In this document: one piece after another, positions 12,916 to 53,945 of the stretch
Position numbering within the stretch: position 1 is the stretch's first letter
How the letters are laid out: each line of letters opens with the position of its first letter
Assembly (NCBI RefSeq): GCF_025028335.1
Contig: NZ_JAFEUW010000001.1
Location: 744,001 to 808,000, forward strand
Reading direction: 5' to 3'
Length of the DNA: 64,000 bases
DNA from: Brachybacterium sillae
Lineage (GTDB): Bacteria > Actinomycetota > Actinomycetes > Actinomycetales > Dermabacteraceae
The notes under the pieces: model-generated
What the model was told of the DNA's origin: nothing
Seen by the model: only the letters and a program-made list of their open reading frames with translations
The model's database searches: none
Translations under genes and position numbers: made by a program

Positions 12916-13034
12916 TGTCCGGCGGCGTCCTACTCTCCCACACCCTCCCGAGTGCAGTACCATCGGCGCTGTCGAGCTTAGCTACCGGGTTCGGAATGGA
13001 ACCGGGCGTTTCCCCGACGCTATGACCACCGTAA
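12916..13034 (-). rRNA. rrf: 5S ribosomal RNA
   Basis: About 119 bases. The RNA begins TTACGGTGGTCATAGCGTCG and contains the conserved CCGAACCCGG and GTGGGAGAGTAGG blocks of actinobacterial 5S. It is the last gene of the rrn operon. Ends are placed by similarity and may be off by one or two bases. Confidence 0.95.
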
Positions 13035-13116
13035 CACGACGAGACCTAAACCAGCCCCCACACCACCCACCCAAGCTCCCAAAAGAACCCCGGCAAGCGG
13101 CCCGGGATTGCTCCCC

Positions 13117-13141
13117 GAGAACCGCACAGTGAACGCGAGCA
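13117..13141 (-). other. Right arm of pre-23S processing stem
   Basis: This 25-base stretch just after the 23S 3' end is complementary along its whole length to 16248-16272 before the 23S 5' end: 22 Watson-Crick pairs and 3 G-U pairs, no mismatch. It is the expected long helix that RNase III cuts to release pre-23S. Confidence 0.85.
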
Positions 13142-13156
13142 CACAGCAACACGCAA

Positions 13157-16214
<3,058 letters not shown>

Positions 16215-16247
16215 GGCAACACACAAAGACACATATTGCTTACAAGA

Positions 16248-16272
16248 TGCTCGCGTCCACTATGCAGTTCTC
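16248..16272 (-). other. Left arm of pre-23S processing stem
   Basis: Pairs over 25 positions with 13117-13141 (3 G-U pairs, no mismatch), closing a helix around the 23S rRNA. Its first bases overlap the boxA-like element, so antitermination factors and the processing helix would use the same RNA. Confidence 0.85.
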
Positions 16273-16408
16273 AAAGAACAACCCCACACCCCACAACACC
16301 ACCATCCGGCAGCACCATGAAGCGAGGACCAGCCACACACCCCCGGAACCCACCAGCCACCCCGAAGGACGACCAGCCGACCGAAGGCCGCGTGCAGCCT
16401 CACAACCC

Positions 16409-16420
16409 AATAGCGTGTCT
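16409..16420 (-). other. Right arm of pre-16S processing stem
   Basis: A 12-base block in the spacer that is a perfect complement of 18203-18214 in the 16S leader. The two arms enclose the 16S gene, as expected for the RNase III helix of pre-16S. Confidence 0.7.
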
Positions 16421-16582
16421 CCACCTGCAACCAGCACCCCCACCCATCGTTCCCACCACCGAAGCGGCGTACTAGACGAGACCGGAGGCACCGGCCAAGC
16501 GCCCATTCATTGATGTTCCACCCATGAGCAACCCCGCCTTCCACACGCGGGAAGGAACGAGGCCACCAATCTTGGTGATGCT

Positions 16583-18109
<1,527 letters not shown>

Positions 18110-18812: not shown

Positions 18813-20084
18813 TCAGCCGACCCGTCGCACCATGCCGGCGTTCTTCTTGCCCCTGCGCAGCAGCACGTGCCCCTCGGCGAGGGCGTCCACCTGCTCCAGC
18901 GGGGTCTCGAGGGCCGCCGCAGCGACCTTCTCGCCGTTCACCGACAGGCCACCGTCCTGAGCGGCCCGGCGCGCCGCGCTCTTGGACTCCACCACCCCCG
19001 CAGCGACCGCGGCATCCGCCAGGGTCATGGAGCCGGGTGCCTCGATCACACCCAGCTCCGCTGCCACGGCCCGCAGAGTGTCCGCGTCAAGGGCCCGCAC
19101 GTCCCCCCTGCCGAACAGCACGGCTGCGGCCTCGGTGGCCTGCCGCACCGCGTCGGCGCCGTGCACCAGCTCCGTCATCTCATCGGCCAGGGCCCGCTGC
19201 GCAGCGCGACGGAACGGCTCCGTGCGTGTCTGCTCCTCGAGGGCTTCGATCTCCTCCCGGGAGCGGAAGGAGAAGAAGCGCAGATACTTCACCACGTCGG
19301 CGTCGGCGGAGTTCAGCCAGAACTGGTGGAAGGCGTACGGGCTGGTGAGGTCCGGGTCGAGCCACACGGCCCCGCGCTCGCTCTTGCCGAACTTGGTGCC
19401 GTCGGACTTCGTCACCAGCGGGGTGGTCAGGGCGTGCACGTCCACGCCTTCCGTCTTGCGCACCAGGTCCACGCCGGAGAGCAGGTTGCCCCACTGGTCG
19501 TTGCCGCCGTACTGGAGGGTGACACCCTCGCGCCGGTACAGCTCCAGGAAGTCGATGCCCTGCAGGATCTGGTAGCTGAACTCGGTGTAGGAGATGCCCT
19601 CGTCGCTGGCGAGGCGTCGGGCCACCGTCTCCTTCGCGAGCATCGTGCCCATGCGGTAGTTCTTCCCGACACCGCGCAGGAAGTCGAGCGCGCTCATGCG
19701 GCCGATCCAGTCGAGGTTGTTGACCAGGCGCACGCCGCTGGGTCCCTCGAGGTCGAGGAAGCGGCTGATCTGGGTGCGCAGCGACTCGACCCAGCCAGCC
19801 ACCACCTCCTCGTCGTTGAGCACCCGCTCTCCGCTCATGCGGGGGTCCCCGATCAGACCGGTGGCGCCGCCGACCAGCGCGACAGGACGGTGCCCCGCCA
19901 GCTGGAACCGCCGCATGGTGAGAACCTGGGTGAGGTGACCGACGTGCAGCGACCCGGCCGTGGGATCGAACCCGCAGTACAGGGAGACCGGTCCGGCGGC
20001 GAGAGCCTCCGCGAGCGCGTCGCGCCCGGTGGTCTGCACGACGAGTCCGCGCCAGTCGAGCTCGTCCAGAACGGTCTGTGTCAC
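18813..20084 (-). CDS. tyrS: Tyrosyl-tRNA synthetase
   Basis: The protein has 423 residues, normal for bacterial TyrRS. The class I HIGH element is HVGHL (about 47-51), the KMSKS loop is KFGKS (after GTKFGKSERGAVW), and a C-terminal S4 RNA-binding domain occupies about 350-420. It attaches tyrosine to tRNA-Tyr in the cytoplasm. It follows argH by 59 bases in the same direction, so it may be partly co-transcribed with the arginine cluster, and precedes the rrn operon. No T-box is seen upstream. Confidence 0.96.
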   Translation of the reverse strand: MTQTVLDELDWRGLVVQTTGRDALAEALAAGPVSLYCGFDPTAGSLHVGHLTQVLTMRRFQLAGHRPVALVGGATGLIGDPRMSGERVLNDEEVVAGWVESLRTQISRFLDLEGPSGVRLVNNLDWIGRMSALDFLRGVGKNYRMGTMLAKETVARRLASDEGISYTEFSYQILQGIDFLELYRREGVTLQYGGNDQWGNLLSGVDLVRKTEGVDVHALTTPLVTKSDGTKFGKSERGAVWLDPDLTSPYAFHQFWLNSADADVVKYLRFFSFRSREEIEALEEQTRTEPFRRAAQRALADEMTELVHGADAVRQATEAAAVLFGRGDVRALDADTLRAVAAELGVIEAPGSMTLADAAVAAGVVESKSAARRAAQDGGLSVNGEKVAAAALETPLEQVDALAEGHVLLRRGKKNAGMVRRVG

Positions 20085-22942: not shown

Positions 22943-25806
<2,864 letters not shown>

Positions 25807-25814
<8 letters not shown>

Positions 25815-26826
25815 AGTCGTCCCTCCTCACCATGGTGCCCACGCCCTTGGTCGTGAACACCTCCAGCAACAGTGCGTGCTCGATCCGGCCGTCGACCATC
25901 GCGGCCGTCCGCACCCCGGCGTCGACGGCGTCGAGCAGGGCCTCCGCCTTGGGGATCATCCCGGCGGTCAGGCCCGGCAGCATGGCGCGCAGCTCGGCGG
26001 CGGAGATCTCCGGGATCAGGGAGCCGCGGTCGGGCCAGTCGCGGTACAGGCCCTCCACATCGGTGAGGACCACCAGCTTCTCCGCGCCGAGGCCCTGCGC
26101 GACCGCGGCGGCCGCCAGGTCGGCGTTGATGTTCAGCACCTCCCCGGTCGGGATGCCGTCGGCGTCGACCTCCGGGGCGATGGAGGAGACCACCGGGATG
26201 CGACCGGCCTCGAGCAGGTCCCGCACGGACTCGACGTCGACATGGGTGACCGCGCCGACATGCCCGAGGTCCACGTCCTCCCCGTCGACGACGGTGCCGC
26301 GGCGGACGGCGGAGAACATCCGGGCATCCTCCCCGGACATGCCGATCGCGTACGGGCCGTGCTGGTTGATGAGGCCGACGAGCTCCCGGCCCACCTGCCC
26401 CACCAGGACCATCCGCACCACATCCATGGTCTCGGCGCTGGTGACGCGCATGCCCCCGCGGAAGCTGGACTCCACCCCCAGGCGTTCCAGCATGGCGGAG
26501 ATCTGCGGGCCGCCGCCGTGGACGACGACCACGTGGATGCCGACGGAGCGCATGAAGACGACATCAGCGGCGAAGGCGCGCTTGAGCTCGTCGTCGATCA
26601 TGGCGTTGCCGCCGTACTTCACCACGACGATGCGGCCGCGGAACCGCTGCATCCACGGCAGGGCCTCGATGAGCACCTCCGACTTGGCGCGGGCGTCGGC
26701 CCGCGCGTCGTCCAGGGCGGCCAGCGGGTTCTTCCCGACGAGGTCCTCGCCGGACGCCGCGGGATCGCTCATCGGGCGGGTGGCCGTGGTGTTCTCGGGC
26801 GCAGTGGGGTCAGGACGAGTAGGCAC
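25807..26826 (-). CDS. argB: Acetylglutamate kinase
   Basis: The protein has 339 residues if read from the GTG at 26826. That start is preceded by GGAGGAG at 5-base spacing and overlaps the restored argJ end; the later ATG at 26772 (321 residues) has no ribosome-binding site. Glycine-rich ATP and substrate loops VVKYGGNAM and [10 protein letters not shown] are present, with VLTDVEGLY near the C-terminus. It phosphorylates N-acetylglutamate and is usually the arginine-inhibited step. In the sequence as given its frame is continuous with argJ because of the argJ frameshift. Confidence 0.92.
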
Positions 26827-27978
26827 TGTTCTCCTCCACGTAGTCGTGGGTGAGGTCGTTGGTCCAGATGTCGGCGGTCGCGGAACCCGCCGCGAGGTCG
26901 ACCTCGATGAGGGTCTCGCGGGGGTCATGTCGACCAGGGAGCGGTCCTCGCCGACACCGCCGTCGCGGCACACCTGGACGCCGTTGACCCGCACGCTGAG
27001 GCGCGCCGGATCGAAGGGGGCGACGGTCTCGGGGACGCAGCCGGCGGCCGCGACGATCCGGCCCCAGTTCGGGTCATTGCCGAAGACGGCGGTCTTCACC
27101 AGGTTCGAGCGGGCGATCTCGCGGGCCACGGCCAGGGCCGACTGCTCCTCGGTGGCGGAGGTGACGACCACGTGCACGTCGTGGGCGGCGCCCTCCGCGT
27201 CGGCGACCAGGGCCCGGGCGAGCCGAGCGCTCACTTCGCGCAGACCCGCGATCAGGGCCTCCTCCTCGACGGTGACGCCGGAGGCCCCGGAGGCCAACAG
27301 GATCACGGTGTCGTTGGTGGACATGCAAGCATCGGAGTCGACCCGGTCGAAGGTGGTGCGGGTGGCCTCCCGCAACGCGCGCCGGGCGGTCGCGTGGTCG
27401 ACGACGGCGTCGGTGGTGAGCACCACCAGCATGGTCGCCAGCTGCGGGGCCAGCATCCCGGCGCCCTTGGCCATACTGCCGATCGCAGCGCCGCCGGGCA
27501 GCTGGGCGGAGGCGGTCTTCGGGACGGTGTCGGTGGTCATGATGGCGTGGGCGGCATCGTGCGCGGCGTCCTCCCCCGCGGCGAGGGCGTGCACCGCGTC
27601 GTCGACCCCCGCGAGCAGCCGGTCCATCGGCAGGCGCTCGCCGATGAGACCGGTGGAGCAGACGAGCACGTCCTGGGCGGACAGCTGCAGAGCGTCGGCG
27701 AGGTGCTCCGCGGTGCGGTGGGTGTCGGCGAATCCCTCGGGGCCGGTGCAGGCGTTGGCGCCACCGGAGTTCAGCACGACGGCGCGGGCGCGCCCGTCGG
27801 CCACGGCCTGCCGTGACCACTGCACCGGGGCGGCCTGCACCCGATTGGCGGTGAACACGGCGGCGGCGACGTCCAGGGGGCCGTCGTTGACGACGAGGGC
27901 GACGTCGCGGGCGCCGGTGGTCTTCAGACCGGCGGCGACGCCGGCGGCGCGGAATCCCTGCGGGGCGGTGACGCTCAT
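26810..27978 (-). pseudogene. argJ: Glutamate N-acetyltransferase / ornithine acetyltransferase, frameshifted near the 3' end
   Basis: Residues 1-350 are a normal Arg[22 protein letters not shown] carries the self-cleavage site before the nucleophilic Thr. At the C5 run (G5 at 26920-26924 on the plus strand) the frame shifts. Adding one C restores [14 protein letters not shown] ... [18 protein letters not shown] and a TGA at 26810-26812, the exact family C-terminus and a 389-residue protein. Without it, reading continues in frame into argB, giving a 723-residue fusion lacking the C-terminal residues that line the ArgJ active site. A sequencing or assembly error is the simplest explanation; a real mutation is possible. 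Confidence 0.88.
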
Positions 27979-48563: not shown

Positions 48564-48616
48564 AGTCTAGGAGCGGGGTGGCCGGTTGGGCCGAGGCGTC
48601 CGCCAGGTCCTACGAT
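48564..48616. promoter_or_regulatory. Divergent leaderless promoters of hisD and ZIP gene
   Basis: Minus-strand TAGACT (48564-48569) lies 6 bases before the hisD ATG; plus-strand TACGAT (48611-48616) lies 6 bases before the ZIP GTG at 48623. Neither start has a Shine-Dalgarno sequence. The two -35 regions would overlap around 48586-48592 (TTGGGC for the plus strand, 19-base spacer), so one factor could affect both. Confidence 0.5.
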
Positions 48617-48622
48617 ACGGGC

Positions 48623-49438
48623 GTGACCTGGGCATTTCTCCTCACCTTCCTCGCCGGCGCCGCCGCCTGCGTCGGGGCCGGGCTCGGTCTGCTCGGACGT
48701 GAGGACGACGACCGTGCCCTGGCGGGCGGTCTGGCGCTCAGCGCCGGCGTGATGCTGTATGTGTCGTTCGTCGAGCTGCTGCCGCAGGCGGCCGCCATGC
48801 TCGACGGCGGGACGGCGAGCGCCTCGACCTCGGTGCGCACCGCCCTCGCCTTCTTCTTCGGCATCGCCGTGATCATGGTGCTCGACCGATTGGTGCCGCA
48901 GGCTGTCAACCCGCATGAGAGGCCCGACTCGGGGATGGCGACCGGCGACGCAGCGGGGGCCTCCTCGCGCGAGTCCGCGCGCCGGTCGCGTCTGTTGCGC
49001 ACGGGCTTGGTGACGGCGGCGGTGCTGGCGCTGCACAACGTGCCCGAGGGCTTCGCGACCTTCATGACCGCCCTGCAGGCGCCGGAGGTGGCGATCCCGG
49101 TGGCCGCGGCGATCGCCCTGCACAACATCCCCGAGGGCATCGCCGTGGCGGTGCCGGTGCATCGGGCGACGGGGTCGCGGCGGCGCGCTTTCATCCTCGC
49201 CACGTTCTCAGGACTCGCGGAACCGGTGGGGGCGCTGCTCGGGTACGCACTGCTGGCGCCGTTCCTCACCGATGCGGTGCTCGGCTCCCTGCTGGCGGCG
49301 GTCGCGGGCGTGATGGTGTTCGTGAGTCTCGACGAGCTGCTGCCCGCCGCGGTGCAGACCGGCCGCCACCATGTGGCGGTGTACTCCCTGGTGGCGGGGA
49401 TGGCCGTGATGGCGGTGAGCCTGCTGGTGCTCAGCTGA
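48623..49438 (+). CDS. ZIP-family metal transporter (ZupT-like)
   Basis: The protein has 271 residues from the GTG at 48623. Eight membrane segments; the metal path motifs are LHNVPEGFATF in helix 4 and LHNIPEGIAVAV in helix 5, as in ZupT. It takes up zinc and possibly other divalent metals. An upstream in-frame start would run through the promoter. It is near another metal-transport-like gene (Nramp family) about 1 kb away. Confidence 0.9.
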   Translation: MTWAFLLTFLAGAAACVGAGLGLLGREDDDRALAGGLALSAGVMLYVSFVELLPQAAAMLDGGTASASTSVRTALAFFFGIAVIMVLDRLVPQAVNPHERPDSGMATGDAAGASSRESARRSRLLRTGLVTAAVLALHNVPEGFATFMTALQAPEVAIPVAAAIALHNIPEGIAVAVPVHRATGSRRRAFILATFSGLAEPVGALLGYALLAPFLTDAVLGSLLAAVAGVMVFVSLDELLPAAVQTGRHHVAVYSLVAGMAVMAVSLLVLS

Positions 49439-49444
49439 TGCGCA

Positions 49445-49464
49445 GCCCGGGACCCGCCCCGGGC
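49445..49464. terminator. Hairpin between convergent ZIP and ectC genes
   Basis: A 7-bp stem GCCCGGG/CCCGGGC with a 6-base loop lies 6 bases after the ZIP stop. No U run. A plausible terminator for the ZIP transcript. Confidence 0.5.
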
Positions 49465-49547
49465 ACGGGACGGGCCCCGGTCGGACACGCGGATCGGGCC
49501 GGAGGCCCGTACCCGGAGTGCTCAGAGGCAGCAACCAGCTGCCGTGC

Positions 49548-49925
49548 TCAGTAGGAGGAGAAGCCGTCCTCGGACAGGGTGTGCTTCTCCTTGCCGGTGA
49601 TCGGCGGGTTGAAGATCGAGACGAGGATGAGGTCCTCGTCGTCGGAGGCCTCGAGGTAGTGCTTGTCGTGCTGGTCGAGCACATAGATGGTGCCCGGCAC
49701 GATGTCGTACCGCTGCGAGCGGTCCTCGTTCCACACGGTGCCGCTGCCGCCGATGCAGTAGCAGGCCTCGAGGTGGTTGCGGTACTGCAGGCGCGAGGAG
49801 GTGCCCTTGCGGACCACGGTGTGGGCGACGGCGAAGCCCATCGGGTCCTCGGCGGTCAGCACGCGCTGGCTGGTGCCGGCGCCCCACTCGACCTTCTCGA
49901 CGTCGTTGATGGAACGGGTGTACAT
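49548..49925 (-). CDS. ectC: Ectoine synthase, solitary gene
   Basis: The protein has 125 residues from the ATG at 49925, with AAGGAGG 5-6 bases upstream. It is a full-length EctC cupin: NHLEACYCIGGSG, PGTIYVLDQHDKHYL and FNPPITGKEKH. E53, Y81 and H89 match the iron ligands of characterised EctC (each 4 residues earlier than in the Paenibacillus enzyme), and W14 is kept. EctC closes N-gamma-acetyl-diaminobutyrate to the osmolyte ectoine. No ectA, ectB or ectD is nearby: the neighbours are metal transporters. Confidence 0.9.
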   Translation of the reverse strand: MYTRSINDVEKVEWGAGTSQRVLTAEDPMGFAVAHTVVRKGTSSRLQYRNHLEACYCIGGSGTVWNEDRSQRYDIVPGTIYVLDQHDKHYLEASDDEDLILVSIFNPPITGKEKHTLSEDGFSSY

Positions 49926-50259
49926 CGCGTCCTCCTTCTTGGTCGACTCTCCGGCCGGGACCAACCGGGGGTGCACCCCGGCCCGGTGGACGACCGGGCC
50001 GCGGTGCGGATGGCGGTCACCATAACGGCCGTCCCCGACACGCGACCGGGCCCCGTCCGACATGCGAGGCACCCCTTTCGTGTGGCGCAGGTCTCCTGTA
50101 GCTTTGCGGTCCACGTCACATCGGGTGCCGTCCGGGCTCCCGATCGGATTCCGCGAGCGCCGCAGGCCGCGTCGACGCCGCACTGTCCCGTCCGGACGAC
50201 GGCGACCCGATCAACGGCCGACCGACTGGCCCGCACCACGTCTCGCGTGAGGAGCGTCC
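49926..50259. other. Intergenic region between divergent ectC and Nramp-family gene
   Basis: About 330 bases. On the minus strand TATGGT (50019-50024) is a possible ectC -10, giving a leader of about 85 bases. The leader contains a 6-bp hairpin CCGGGG/CCCCGG (49965-49981). The Nramp-family start at 50260 has GAGGAG upstream; I cannot name its promoter. No additional gene. Confidence 0.4.
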
Positions 50260-51576
50260 ATGGCCCCCACCCCCGTTCCCTCCGGTGCGTCCGAGGATGT
50301 CCCCGCGCACGCGCCCGACCACACCTCGAGAGATCACGGGCGCTCCACCGCGCAGCCACGCCGTCGCGGTTCCCGTTTCGGCCCCGGGCTGATCATCGCG
50401 GCCTCCTTCATCGGCCCGGGCACGGTGACCACCTCGATCGTGACCGGCGCGAGCGTCGGTTTCGCCCTGGCCTGGGCGGTGGTGTTCTCGATCATCGCCA
50501 CGATCGTGCTGCAGGAGATGTCCGTCCGCCTCGGCCTGGGCGCCCGCATCGGCCTCGCTGAGGCGATGCGGCGCGTGTTCCGCCACCCCGTGGCGAAGGC
50601 GCTGATGATCGCCCTGGTCGTCGCGGCGATCGGGATCGGCGGCGCCGCCTACGCGGGCGGCGACACCACCGGCACCGCCCTGGCCGTCACCACCGCCCTG
50701 CCGGTCGACCTGACGATCGTGGTGGCGGTCATCATCCTGGCGATCTTCGGACTGCTGGTCACCGGCAGCTACCAGGTGGTGGAGAAGGTCCTGATGGTGA
50801 TGGTGGTGATCCTCGCCGTCCTGTTCCTCATCACCGCGTTCGTGGTGCGTCCGCCGATCGGCGACCTCCTGCGCGGACTGTTCGTGCCGTCGATCCCCGC
50901 GGGATCACTGCTGACCACCATCGCCCTGATCGGGACCACCGTCGTGCCCTACAACGTGTTCCTCCACGCCAGTCTGGTGCAGGAGAACTGGGGTGAGGAC
51001 GACCCCGACCACGCCATCCGCGAAGCCCGCATCGACACCGTCGGGTCGATCTCCCTGGGCGGCCTGATCACCCTGGCCGTGATGGCCACCGCCTTCGGCG
51101 CGATGTTCCTGCGCGGCATCCCCGCCGAGACCGGTACCGACCTGGTGCGATCCCTGGAACCGTTGCTCGGGGACGCCGCCCCGTGGGTGTTCGCGCTCGG
51201 TCTGTTCGCGGCCGGATTCACCTCAGCCCTGGCCGGCCCGCTGGGCGCCGCCTACGCGATCTGCGGGGTGCTGGGACTCAGCACCGACATGCGGTCGTGG
51301 CCCTTCCGCATCGTGTGGATGCTGGTGCTGCTGATCGGAGCGGTGATCGCCCTGACCGGCATCGAGCCGATCACGATCATCGTGGTGGCGCAGGCCGCGA
51401 ACGGCCTGTTGCTGCCGATCATCGCGGTCTTCCTGCTGATCACCATGAACAACCGTGAGCTGCTGGGCCGCTGGGCGAACGGCCCGGTGAGCAACATCGT
51501 CGGCGGGCTGATCACCGCTGTCATCATCGGCCTGGCGATCTATCAGCTCGGCAGCCTCGCTGGATTCTGGGAGTGA
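50260..51576 (+). CDS. Nramp-family transporter with altered metal-binding motifs
   Basis: The protein has 438 residues, eleven or twelve membrane segments after a 40-residue polar N-terminus. In canonical Nramp/MntH proteins helix 1 carries DPGN and helix 6 MPHN, which coordinate Mn or Fe. Here helix 1 reads FIGPGTVTT (G52-P53-G54-T55) and helix 6 VVPYNVFLHASLVQ (V229, Y231). The Asp, Asn and Met ligands are thus all absent, although the fold elements (LQEMSVRLG; SLVQENW) are kept. Mn transport is doubtful; another ion such as Mg, or a non-metal substrate, is possible. Confidence 0.85.
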   Translation: MAPTPVPSGASEDVPAHAPDHTSRDHGRSTAQPRRRGSRFGPGLIIAASFIGPGTVTTSIVTGASVGFALAWAVVFSIIATIVLQEMSVRLGLGARIGLAEAMRRVFRHPVAKALMIALVVAAIGIGGAAYAGGDTTGTALAVTTALPVDLTIVVAVIILAIFGLLVTGSYQVVEKVLMVMVVILAVLFLITAFVVRPPIGDLLRGLFVPSIPAGSLLTTIALIGTTVVPYNVFLHASLVQENWGEDDPDHAIREARIDTVGSISLGGLITLAVMATAFGAMFLRGIPAETGTDLVRSLEPLLGDAAPWVFALGLFAAGFTSALAGPLGAAYAICGVLGLSTDMRSWPFRIVWMLVLLIGAVIALTGIEPITIIVVAQAANGLLLPIIAVFLLITMNNRELLGRWANGPVSNIVGGLITAVIIGLAIYQLGSLAGFWE

Positions 51577-51617
51577 CACCGTCGGGCGGGTCCCGCCCGA
51601 CGACTCGCACCCCATGA

Positions 51618-53945
<2,328 letters not shown>

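Follow-up and report, generated by a model that had tools for sequence, protein, structure and literature searches.

A solitary ectoine synthase-like gene of Brachybacterium sillae encodes an EctC protein that falls in a clade separate from the cluster-encoded enzymes, has an altered pocket signature, and is found without ectAB; it is associated with a gene for an Nramp-family transporter in which the family's metal motif is lost. Together, these features point to a small cyclic relative of glutamine, and to neither ectoine nor metals, as what the pair handles. The reading that we put forward, tentatively, is of a two-gene module outside ectoine biosynthesis—the carrier would move a cyclic amidine or lactam, probably 5-amino-3,4-dihydro-2H-pyrrole-2-carboxylate (ADPC), and the EctC-like enzyme would interconvert this compound with glutamine. 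The substrate, the direction, and the transport activity are the parts of this reading that we infer. Features of the locus are collected in Table 1; the window is the whole stretch of DNA analysed, 64,000 nucleotides in length.

Table 1. Features of the ectC-like/nramp-like locus (window coordinates)
Feature	Position	Strand	Basis
ZupT-type ZIP transporter, flanking background gene, outside the module	48578..49438	+	
Solitary clade-II EctC-like cupin of 125 aa	49548..49925	-	ORF, profile matches, tree, predicted fold
Divergent intergenic region, ectC-like/nramp-like, 334 bp	49926..50259	.	
Nramp-like (Nramp-related) transporter, 438 aa, EctC pair partner	50260..51576	+	
Monomeric isocitrate dehydrogenase (IDH), background gene on the other flank	51717..53945	+	

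The ectoine synthase-family gene that a preliminary description of this DNA had placed here is real: the open reading frame, 125 codons and a stop, has the coordinates given there, an AAGGAGG ribosome-binding site lies immediately 5' of the ATG at 49925, and the product matches both the Pfam profile PF06339 (Ectoine_synth; 116.6 bits, cut-off 27) and the NCBIfam ectoine synthase model NF009806 (142 bits, cut-off 128). Its AlphaFold2 model (mean pLDDT 93.4) has the predicted cupin fold of solved EctC structures, the closest being 5bxx (Z 17.6, rmsd 1.6 over 109 residues), followed by 5onn (Z 17.4, rmsd 1.9 over 116 residues). Residues E53, Y81, and H89, which the description had named as retained iron ligands, align with Glu-57, Tyr-84, and His-92, the iron ligands of P. 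lautus EctC (PMC6344544), and its view of the enzyme as active is one that we accept as probably right. The gene is a member of the orphan EctC group already in print, as had also been proposed; in a 2018 survey, 145 of the 582 EctC sequences belonged to this group, whose function is called unresolved in the available text of PMC5924519 and PMC6344544.

In the 2.67-Mb source genome (2 contigs, 99.99% complete), a profile search returned a single EctC match, the window gene. EctA drew no match at E 0.001 in the whole genome, and the EctB model drew two, at 150.5 and 52.9 bits, both far under its cut-off of 552.2—the higher-scoring protein, at 24507-25814, reads as an ArgD-like aminotransferase by sequence and gene order, and the weaker lies outside the window. 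Thus, the absence of ectA and ectB, first described for 14 kb on either side, extends to the entire genome, and the EctC-like gene, lacking the genomic company of ectA and ectB that marks a bona fide EctC, is solitary genome-wide. An ect cluster elsewhere that is missing its ectC, which would have made the gene a simple relocation, was searched for across the genome and not found; a relocated ectC of a broken cluster is rejected, as neither ectA nor a true ectB was found in the genome. Among 36 same-genus genomes, canonical-type EctC (at least 167 bits) occurs in 19, the divergent type (115-117 bits) in three (G000, G027, and G033), and no match in 14; the two types occur together in none of the 36.

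Elsewhere in the window, a complete rRNA operon (5S, 23S, 16S) on the minus strand at 12917-18107 explains a GC dip to 57% over the same interval. On the same strand, a 723-aa frame at 25807-27978 seems to combine an ArgJ-like N-terminal part, a low-complexity linker, and an ArgB-like part (names assigned by eye); instead of a true fusion, this may be the result of a frameshift or a sequencing error.

The preliminary description had called for a phylogenetic comparison with operon-encoded EctC, and this comparison places the window gene in a separate clade. The tree comprises 84 distinct proteins (identical rows were collapsed, and sequences shorter than 100 aa were left out, which removed L036 and L066, both of them copies of one truncated gene record from genome G375), with a 100/100 branch between 37 canonical and 47 second-clade (clade II) rows. 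Solitary and cluster-encoded EctC-like rows, the window gene included, are interleaved inside clade II. At the canonical loci, ectB was found within the fetched stretch (mostly 1.5-kb flanks) in 46 of 47 cases, compared with none of 106 clade-II loci having ectA or a close ectB (many of the 106 are duplicates, 44 exceed 9 kb, and one has a distant 27.7% match); for ectA the control is weak, as the flanks reach that gene at just 4 of the 47 canonical loci.

Eight positions—the three iron ligands together with S23, R25, T40, Y52, and F106 (P. lautus numbering)—are invariant in 84/84 rows. The position of the catalytic tryptophan, on the other hand, divides the clades completely, with WGxGxSxR in all 47 clade-II rows versus xWxSxR in all 37 canonical ones, such that the clade-II residue sits three positions earlier than canonical Trp-21 (which is two before Ser-23). 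In the window protein, this residue is W14, five residues before S19, and the Trp-21 of bona fide EctC is accordingly missing. Conservation of Trp-21 across 437 cluster-encoded EctC is reported in PMC6344544, where a shift of the tryptophan in some orphan EctC had already been noted. Other pocket positions have changed as well: position 38 is Ala, Cys, or Thr in clade II, as against His in the canonical relatives included here and Asn in P. lautus; Cys-104 is replaced by Ser in 46 of 47 clade-II rows; and Trp-51 is replaced by Gln, Glu, or Lys. Given that the C105S variant of S. alaskensis EctC retains 84% activity (PMC4795551) and that position 38 is already His in the canonical relatives here, these changes are compatible with ectoine synthesis, and by themselves the changed residues would be no proof of a new substrate.

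The order hisD, ZIP, EctC, Nramp-like, IDH is found in the three species with divergent EctC. At 8 of 23 other same-genus ZIP loci, ZIP and IDH are direct neighbours (approximately 110-190 bp apart) without ectC; at five others IDH lies approximately 1.3-1.4 kb from ZIP, and at 10 it is beyond the flank. Because ZIP and IDH adjoin in the eight sister genomes, we interpret the ectC-like and nramp-like genes as a two-gene insert. The ZIP transporter, being genus background that stands beside IDH without ectC in those same eight genomes, is ruled out as a functional partner, and among 38 loci a ZIP match near ectC occurs solely in B. epidermidis. The preliminary description had identified the neighbours correctly as a ZIP (here, of ZupT type) and an aberrant Nramp (here, one without canonical metal motifs), but the position "beside metal-transport genes" loses its value as a clue when the ZIP is genus background and the Nramp has lost its metal-coordinating residues. 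The recurrent EctC/Nramp-like pairing, and the membership of this EctC in a clade from which biosynthetic clusters also draw a presumed glutamine cyclase, were points that it missed.

The Nramp-like protein matches PF01566 at 288 bits (cut-off 29.8). Alignment against 10ky shows GPGT in TM1 and VVPYN (VPY) in TM6 in place of DPGN and MPH, the motifs that define a canonical Nramp and coordinate its metal (PMC10185341, PMC12873925), and GPGT/VPY is present in 19/19 transporters examined from EctC-positive genomes. As the protein is the sole Nramp match in the source genome at E 0.001, no canonical MntH is seen there. In a 2026 preprint, as far as its available text goes, Nramps without DPGN/MPH are termed Nramp-related, most of their groups are described as uncharacterised, and B. 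subtilis MntG (YcsG) is assigned to a "G-motif 3" group. YcsG, a homologue of PxpT, is reported to be a Mn2+ importer (PMC10448178), so loss of DPGN is compatible with cation transport. PxpT itself, an Nramp-family protein of C. glutamicum that is 50% identical to YcsG, is reported as required for growth on 5-oxoproline (PMC13274462). Transporters of the PxpT/YcsG type share an operon with oxoprolinase genes; the partner in the window is EctC-like, and PxpA, PxpBC, HyuA, and HyuB had no match in the window or in stretches L121-L158.

On plasmids, the proteins closest to the window transporter come mostly from haloarchaea. The Nramp tree served for the motif table and clustering only (m_L089, in the wrong frame, and the duplicates L163, L164, and L179-L181 were left out), and its haloarchaeal/MntH placement was not used because long branches meet there. 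In 8 of 10 neighbourhoods, the haloarchaeal relatives (43-51% identity) lie directly upstream of hydantoinase/oxoprolinase A and B genes, and an Asp/Glu racemase or maleate isomerase comes next in five of these eight; one of the two remaining neighbourhoods stops at the record edge and the other is without hydantoinase/oxoprolinase genes. A Pseudoalteromonas homologue (49%) has no oxoprolinase alongside. On the strength of the 8/10 haloarchaeal cases, and with Pseudoalteromonas as an exception, the Nramp-related branch occurs repeatedly, not always, with enzymes for small-ring, amino-acid-derived compounds. The Nramp-related carrier, HyuA, and HyuB sets of the haloarchaeal plasmids (L208, L209, L211, L212, L215, L217, L218, and L219), with a CopG-type regulator just upstream in seven of the eight, are likely cyclic-substrate operons, although the carrier bears the annotation of a metal transporter.

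The transporter and the enzyme are associated across genomes. Within the genus, an Nramp-like protein at 75% identity or more is present in 3 of 38 genomes, namely those with divergent EctC, and other Nramp matches reach at most 31% identity. In a sample of 396 genomes of the order, clade-II EctC (at least 60% identity, one truncated) was found in nine and the Nramp-like protein (E at or below 1e-60) in seven, five of which also have clade-II EctC; in two of these five, both Brevibacterium, the genes are unlinked. The exceptions, G305 (60%) and G130 (48%), have the transporter with canonical EctC alone. The relationship is tightest in Corynebacterium (242 genomes), where EctC occurs in 24, the Nramp-like protein in 13, and both in 13, with no transporter match reaching E 1e-60 in genomes without clade-II EctC; in all 13 the two genes are linked, with gaps of 13-2179 bp, in tandem or convergent orientation, and Brachybacterium adds a third arrangement, the divergent one. 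Over 638 genomes, 18 of 19 transporter carriers (at least 57% identity) also have clade-II EctC, which itself occurs in 33; hypergeometric and Fisher values are tiny but ignore relatedness. On the EctC tree, the linked state requires at least five gains or losses, two of them forced by starred branches.

The relation is nested—the transporter nearly always implies the enzyme, and not vice versa. Among the named-locus genomes, the transporter (E at or below 1e-40) was found in 8 of 31 and in none of the nine cluster-type ones; given its absence from these nine and from 11 of the 24 Corynebacterium genomes with EctC, the enzyme is not dependent on it. In the Micrococcus-like genome G375, EctC is N-terminally truncated (L066:9941-10219) and there is no Nramp-like protein above threshold; Micrococcus lacusdianchii has both genes between neighbours like those in G375.

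Several features of these loci were observed alongside. In the two order genomes that have the carrier without clade-II EctC, it stands next to a GntR-like frame (L161) or a maleate isomerase-like frame (L162), by eye. Corynebacterium G551 has three EctC/Nramp-like pairs (L171, L180, and L181), two of them with identical EctC proteins. At seven Corynebacterium loci (L128, L131, L132, and L141-L144), the EctC-like gene is beside ThiO/ThiG/ThiE-like frames (by eye, with one Pfam DAO match), and in L128 and L141 a BCCT transporter lies approximately 2.2 kb from it. Carriers of EctC include isolates with names referring to skin, ear, or urine (for example, Brachybacterium epidermidis, Corynebacterium otitidis, and C. 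urinipleomorphum).

Shared regulation of the ectC-like and nramp-like genes from the region between them is possible. A promoter scan of this region gave no match to the sigma-70 consensus, Rfam gave no family near its gathering score in 49300-51900, and no RNA families were found between the EctC and Nramp-like genes of five linked loci, although RNA, promoter, and fold searches are unable to prove absence. The three intergenic regions align poorly (61% mean identity), and we therefore claim no operator. Riboswitches were seen at two related loci: a glycine riboswitch at 8193-8309 of L145 (Micrococcus lacusdianchii), beside the Nramp-like gene and before a gcvP-like frame, and guanidine-III and TPP riboswitches at 19937-20005 and 17006-17122 of L128 (C. 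lipophiloflavum), further from the pair.

Clade-II context was sampled at 32 loci from named genomes and in a plasmid search of 120 records. Genes for an AMP ligase, a carrier protein, and an acyl-CoA dehydrogenase accompany the EctC-like gene at 9 of the 32 named-genome loci, at four of the first six plasmid loci, and on one further Streptomyces plasmid; L145 and L155, where acyl-CoA dehydrogenase matches nearby are distant (28-32%), were excluded from the cluster count. At five loci the set is complete, comprising AMP ligase, carrier protein, EctC-like protein, acyl-CoA dehydrogenase, transglutaminase-like protein, PsuG-like protein, HAD, and MFS; these showdomycin-type sets are in Arthrobacter sp. 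H35-MC1 (L147), Brevibacterium iodinum (L149), Catellatospora paridis (L156), Micromonospora rosaria (L157), and a Burkholderia stagnalis plasmid (L124). The Brevibacterium iodinum set was checked by Pfam, in which its carrier protein has no match. For showdomycin, the cyclase SdmE is proposed to convert L-glutamine to 2-amino-1-pyrroline-5-carboxylate. SdmC is then described as activating the product for loading on SdmD; oxidation and hydrolysis follow, with SdmA next as the C-glycosylating and SdmB as the dephosphorylating enzyme, in a pathway that is called incompletely understood (PMC8724604). Gene content would equate the EctC-like protein with SdmE and makes it the cyclase candidate of the showdomycin-type clusters.

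The window EctC and the EctC-like proteins of the showdomycin-type clusters share a clade from which canonical EctC is excluded (100/100). At E 1e-4, the window gave no match to AMP ligase, carrier protein, acyl-CoA dehydrogenase, transglutaminase-like, or PsuG-like genes, and none were found in the B. epidermidis locus L127. Rhizobial members of clade II have other surroundings: one adjoins a glutamine synthetase gene, one lies 0.6 kb from a set comprising DUF1989, biotin carboxylase, urea amidolyase, and PxpA, one is ahead of a saccharopine dehydrogenase-type gene, and others are near adenylation, NRPS, ketosynthase, or ATP-grasp genes. A second type of cluster was also observed, in which the EctC-like gene, AMP ligase, carrier protein, and acyl-CoA dehydrogenase occur with trp genes (L125, L226, and L065, the last identical to L153); the annotations of L125 and L226 include trpA, phosphoribosylanthranilate isomerase, and indole-glycerol-phosphate synthase, and the Kineococcus locus L065 has trp-like frames that look similar by eye.

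Independently of these clusters, H. elongata EctC is reported to form ADPC from L-glutamine with very low efficiency, in a reversible reaction with its equilibrium towards glutamine (PMC5924519); PMC4795551 differs from this in describing formation from "two glutamine molecules". By our reading of the names, ADPC is the same compound as the showdomycin intermediate 2-amino-1-pyrroline-5-carboxylate. In the mechanism that we propose, the Nramp-like carrier would move a small cyclic amino-acid derivative, most likely ADPC, and the EctC-like protein would use its Fe(II) as a Lewis acid, in keeping with known EctC chemistry, to open or close the ring of the same compound by hydrolysis or dehydration of an amide or amidine. 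The couple would most likely be L-glutamine and ADPC, the imino relative of 5-oxoproline. Two points lead us to favour import followed by ring-opening to glutamine: the equilibrium is towards glutamine, and the transporter is nearly confined to genomes with the enzyme, but not the enzyme to genomes with the transporter. Ring-opening of this kind would proceed without ATP, on which the PxpABC route for 5-oxoproline depends. Put at its most specific—a cyclic-glutamine scavenging (or secretion) module, previously undescribed, made up of an Nramp-family carrier whose substrate would have changed from metal to a cyclic amidine or lactam amino acid and an EctC-type iron cupin working as ADPC hydrolase/glutamine cyclase—the proposal is possible, and we advance it with more reserve.

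Other explanations would keep the enzyme closer to its annotation. The gene might encode a solitary ectoine synthase fed from outside, with the carrier importing N-acetyl-diaminobutyrate from neighbours or a host and EctC converting it to ectoine as an osmoprotectant. The iron ligands are conserved, as is the majority of the substrate contacts, the protein passes the NCBIfam ectoine synthase model, and solitary ectC of P. syringae is reported to yield ectoine in an H. elongata ectC mutant, with ectoine also found in P. syringae cultures with host leaves (PMC5924519). We consider this account unlikely all the same: clade and pocket differ from those of the 37 canonical enzymes, the clade is also present in clusters without ectA or ectB, relatives of the transporter accompany oxoprolinase/hydantoinase genes in 8/10 haloarchaeal cases, and P. 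syringae is reported to have taken up external N-gamma-ADABA without ectoine formation being seen (PMC5924519). Slightly below it we would rank a glutamine cyclase whose ADPC would serve as a compatible solute or be secreted, with the Nramp-like protein exporting or retrieving it. Such a role would fit the presence of the clade in biosynthetic clusters and the growth under salt stress that ADPC is reported to support (PMC5924519), and export would also account for a transporter found almost only with the enzyme; what makes it doubtful is that the equilibrium favours glutamine in the sole enzyme reported (PMC5924519), that the window has no ATP-consuming partner of the cluster type, and that PxpT, a comparable Nramp-family carrier, is needed for uptake (PMC13274462).

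Two further accounts seem far less probable than either of these. That the locus is a metal module, with the EctC cupin receiving its Fe(II) or another cation through Nramp and ZIP, accords with the iron dependence of EctC (PMC6344544), with the Pfam and NCBIfam labels of both neighbours as metal transporters, and with the report of YcsG as a Mn2+ importer (PMC10448178), and is very improbable in view of the replacement of DPGN and MPH in 19/19 transporters from EctC genomes and of the ZIP as background that adjoins IDH without ectC in eight sister genomes. Still less credible is a functionless remnant of a lost ectABC cluster; canonical ectC does exist in sister species (19 of 36 same-genus genomes), yet the window protein is not a canonical EctC, neither ectA nor ectB is at the site, the frame is intact together with its partner in three species, and dN/dS is below 1 for both genes (approximately 0.34-0.52 for the EctC-like gene and 0.25-0.44 for the Nramp-like gene, three pairs each).

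What is new here relative to orphan EctC as previously described is the stable pairing with an Nramp-family carrier that lacks the metal site, and the connection of the clade with clusters that presumably cyclise glutamine. In a limited search of open-access papers, we found none joining Nramp with ectoine synthase, or showdomycin with ectoine synthase. Should the glutamine/ADPC reading be true, much of the orphan EctC group would act on glutamine and not on ectoine precursors, and in actinobacteria with the gene, its annotation as "ectoine synthase" would lead predictions of ectoine production astray. For the orphan EctC, the locus offers a transporter partner and, in Gln/ADPC, a concrete substrate couple that can be tested; it also adds an enzyme context for Nramp-related proteins.

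Set against known systems, the window transporter resembles the entry 7qia, listed as a divalent metal cation transporter, which we take to be the Nramp-related Mg2+ transporter EleNRMT. The two share membership of the Nramp family without the canonical metal motif (124 bits to the window transporter), and their site residues differ; we know of no EctC link of EleNRMT.

Canonical EctC (5ONM/5ONN/5ONO, 5BXX) and the window protein have in common the cupin fold, the Fe(II) ligands, and S23, R25, T40, Y52, E57, and F106, whereas the window protein is 35-36% identical to them, has WGxGxS instead of xWxS, and stands without ectA/ectB. It belongs with the orphan EctC of PMC5924519 and PMC6344544, which likewise lie outside ectABC, keep the iron ligands, and in some cases show the shifted tryptophan; the available text of those papers names no partner gene, in contrast to the Nramp-like partner and glutamine-cyclase context found here. 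With SdmE (PMC8724604), the likeness is one of gene content—clade-II EctC-like genes fill the cyclase slot in five similar clusters, whereas the window and L127 are without adenylation, carrier-protein, and dehydrogenase neighbours. Finally, PxpT/YcsG (PMC13274462, PMC10448178) provides the parallel for the pair as a whole, an Nramp-family carrier genetically coupled to an enzyme that opens or forms a ring derived from glutamine or glutamate, with PxpABC as the partner there and the EctC-like protein as the partner here.
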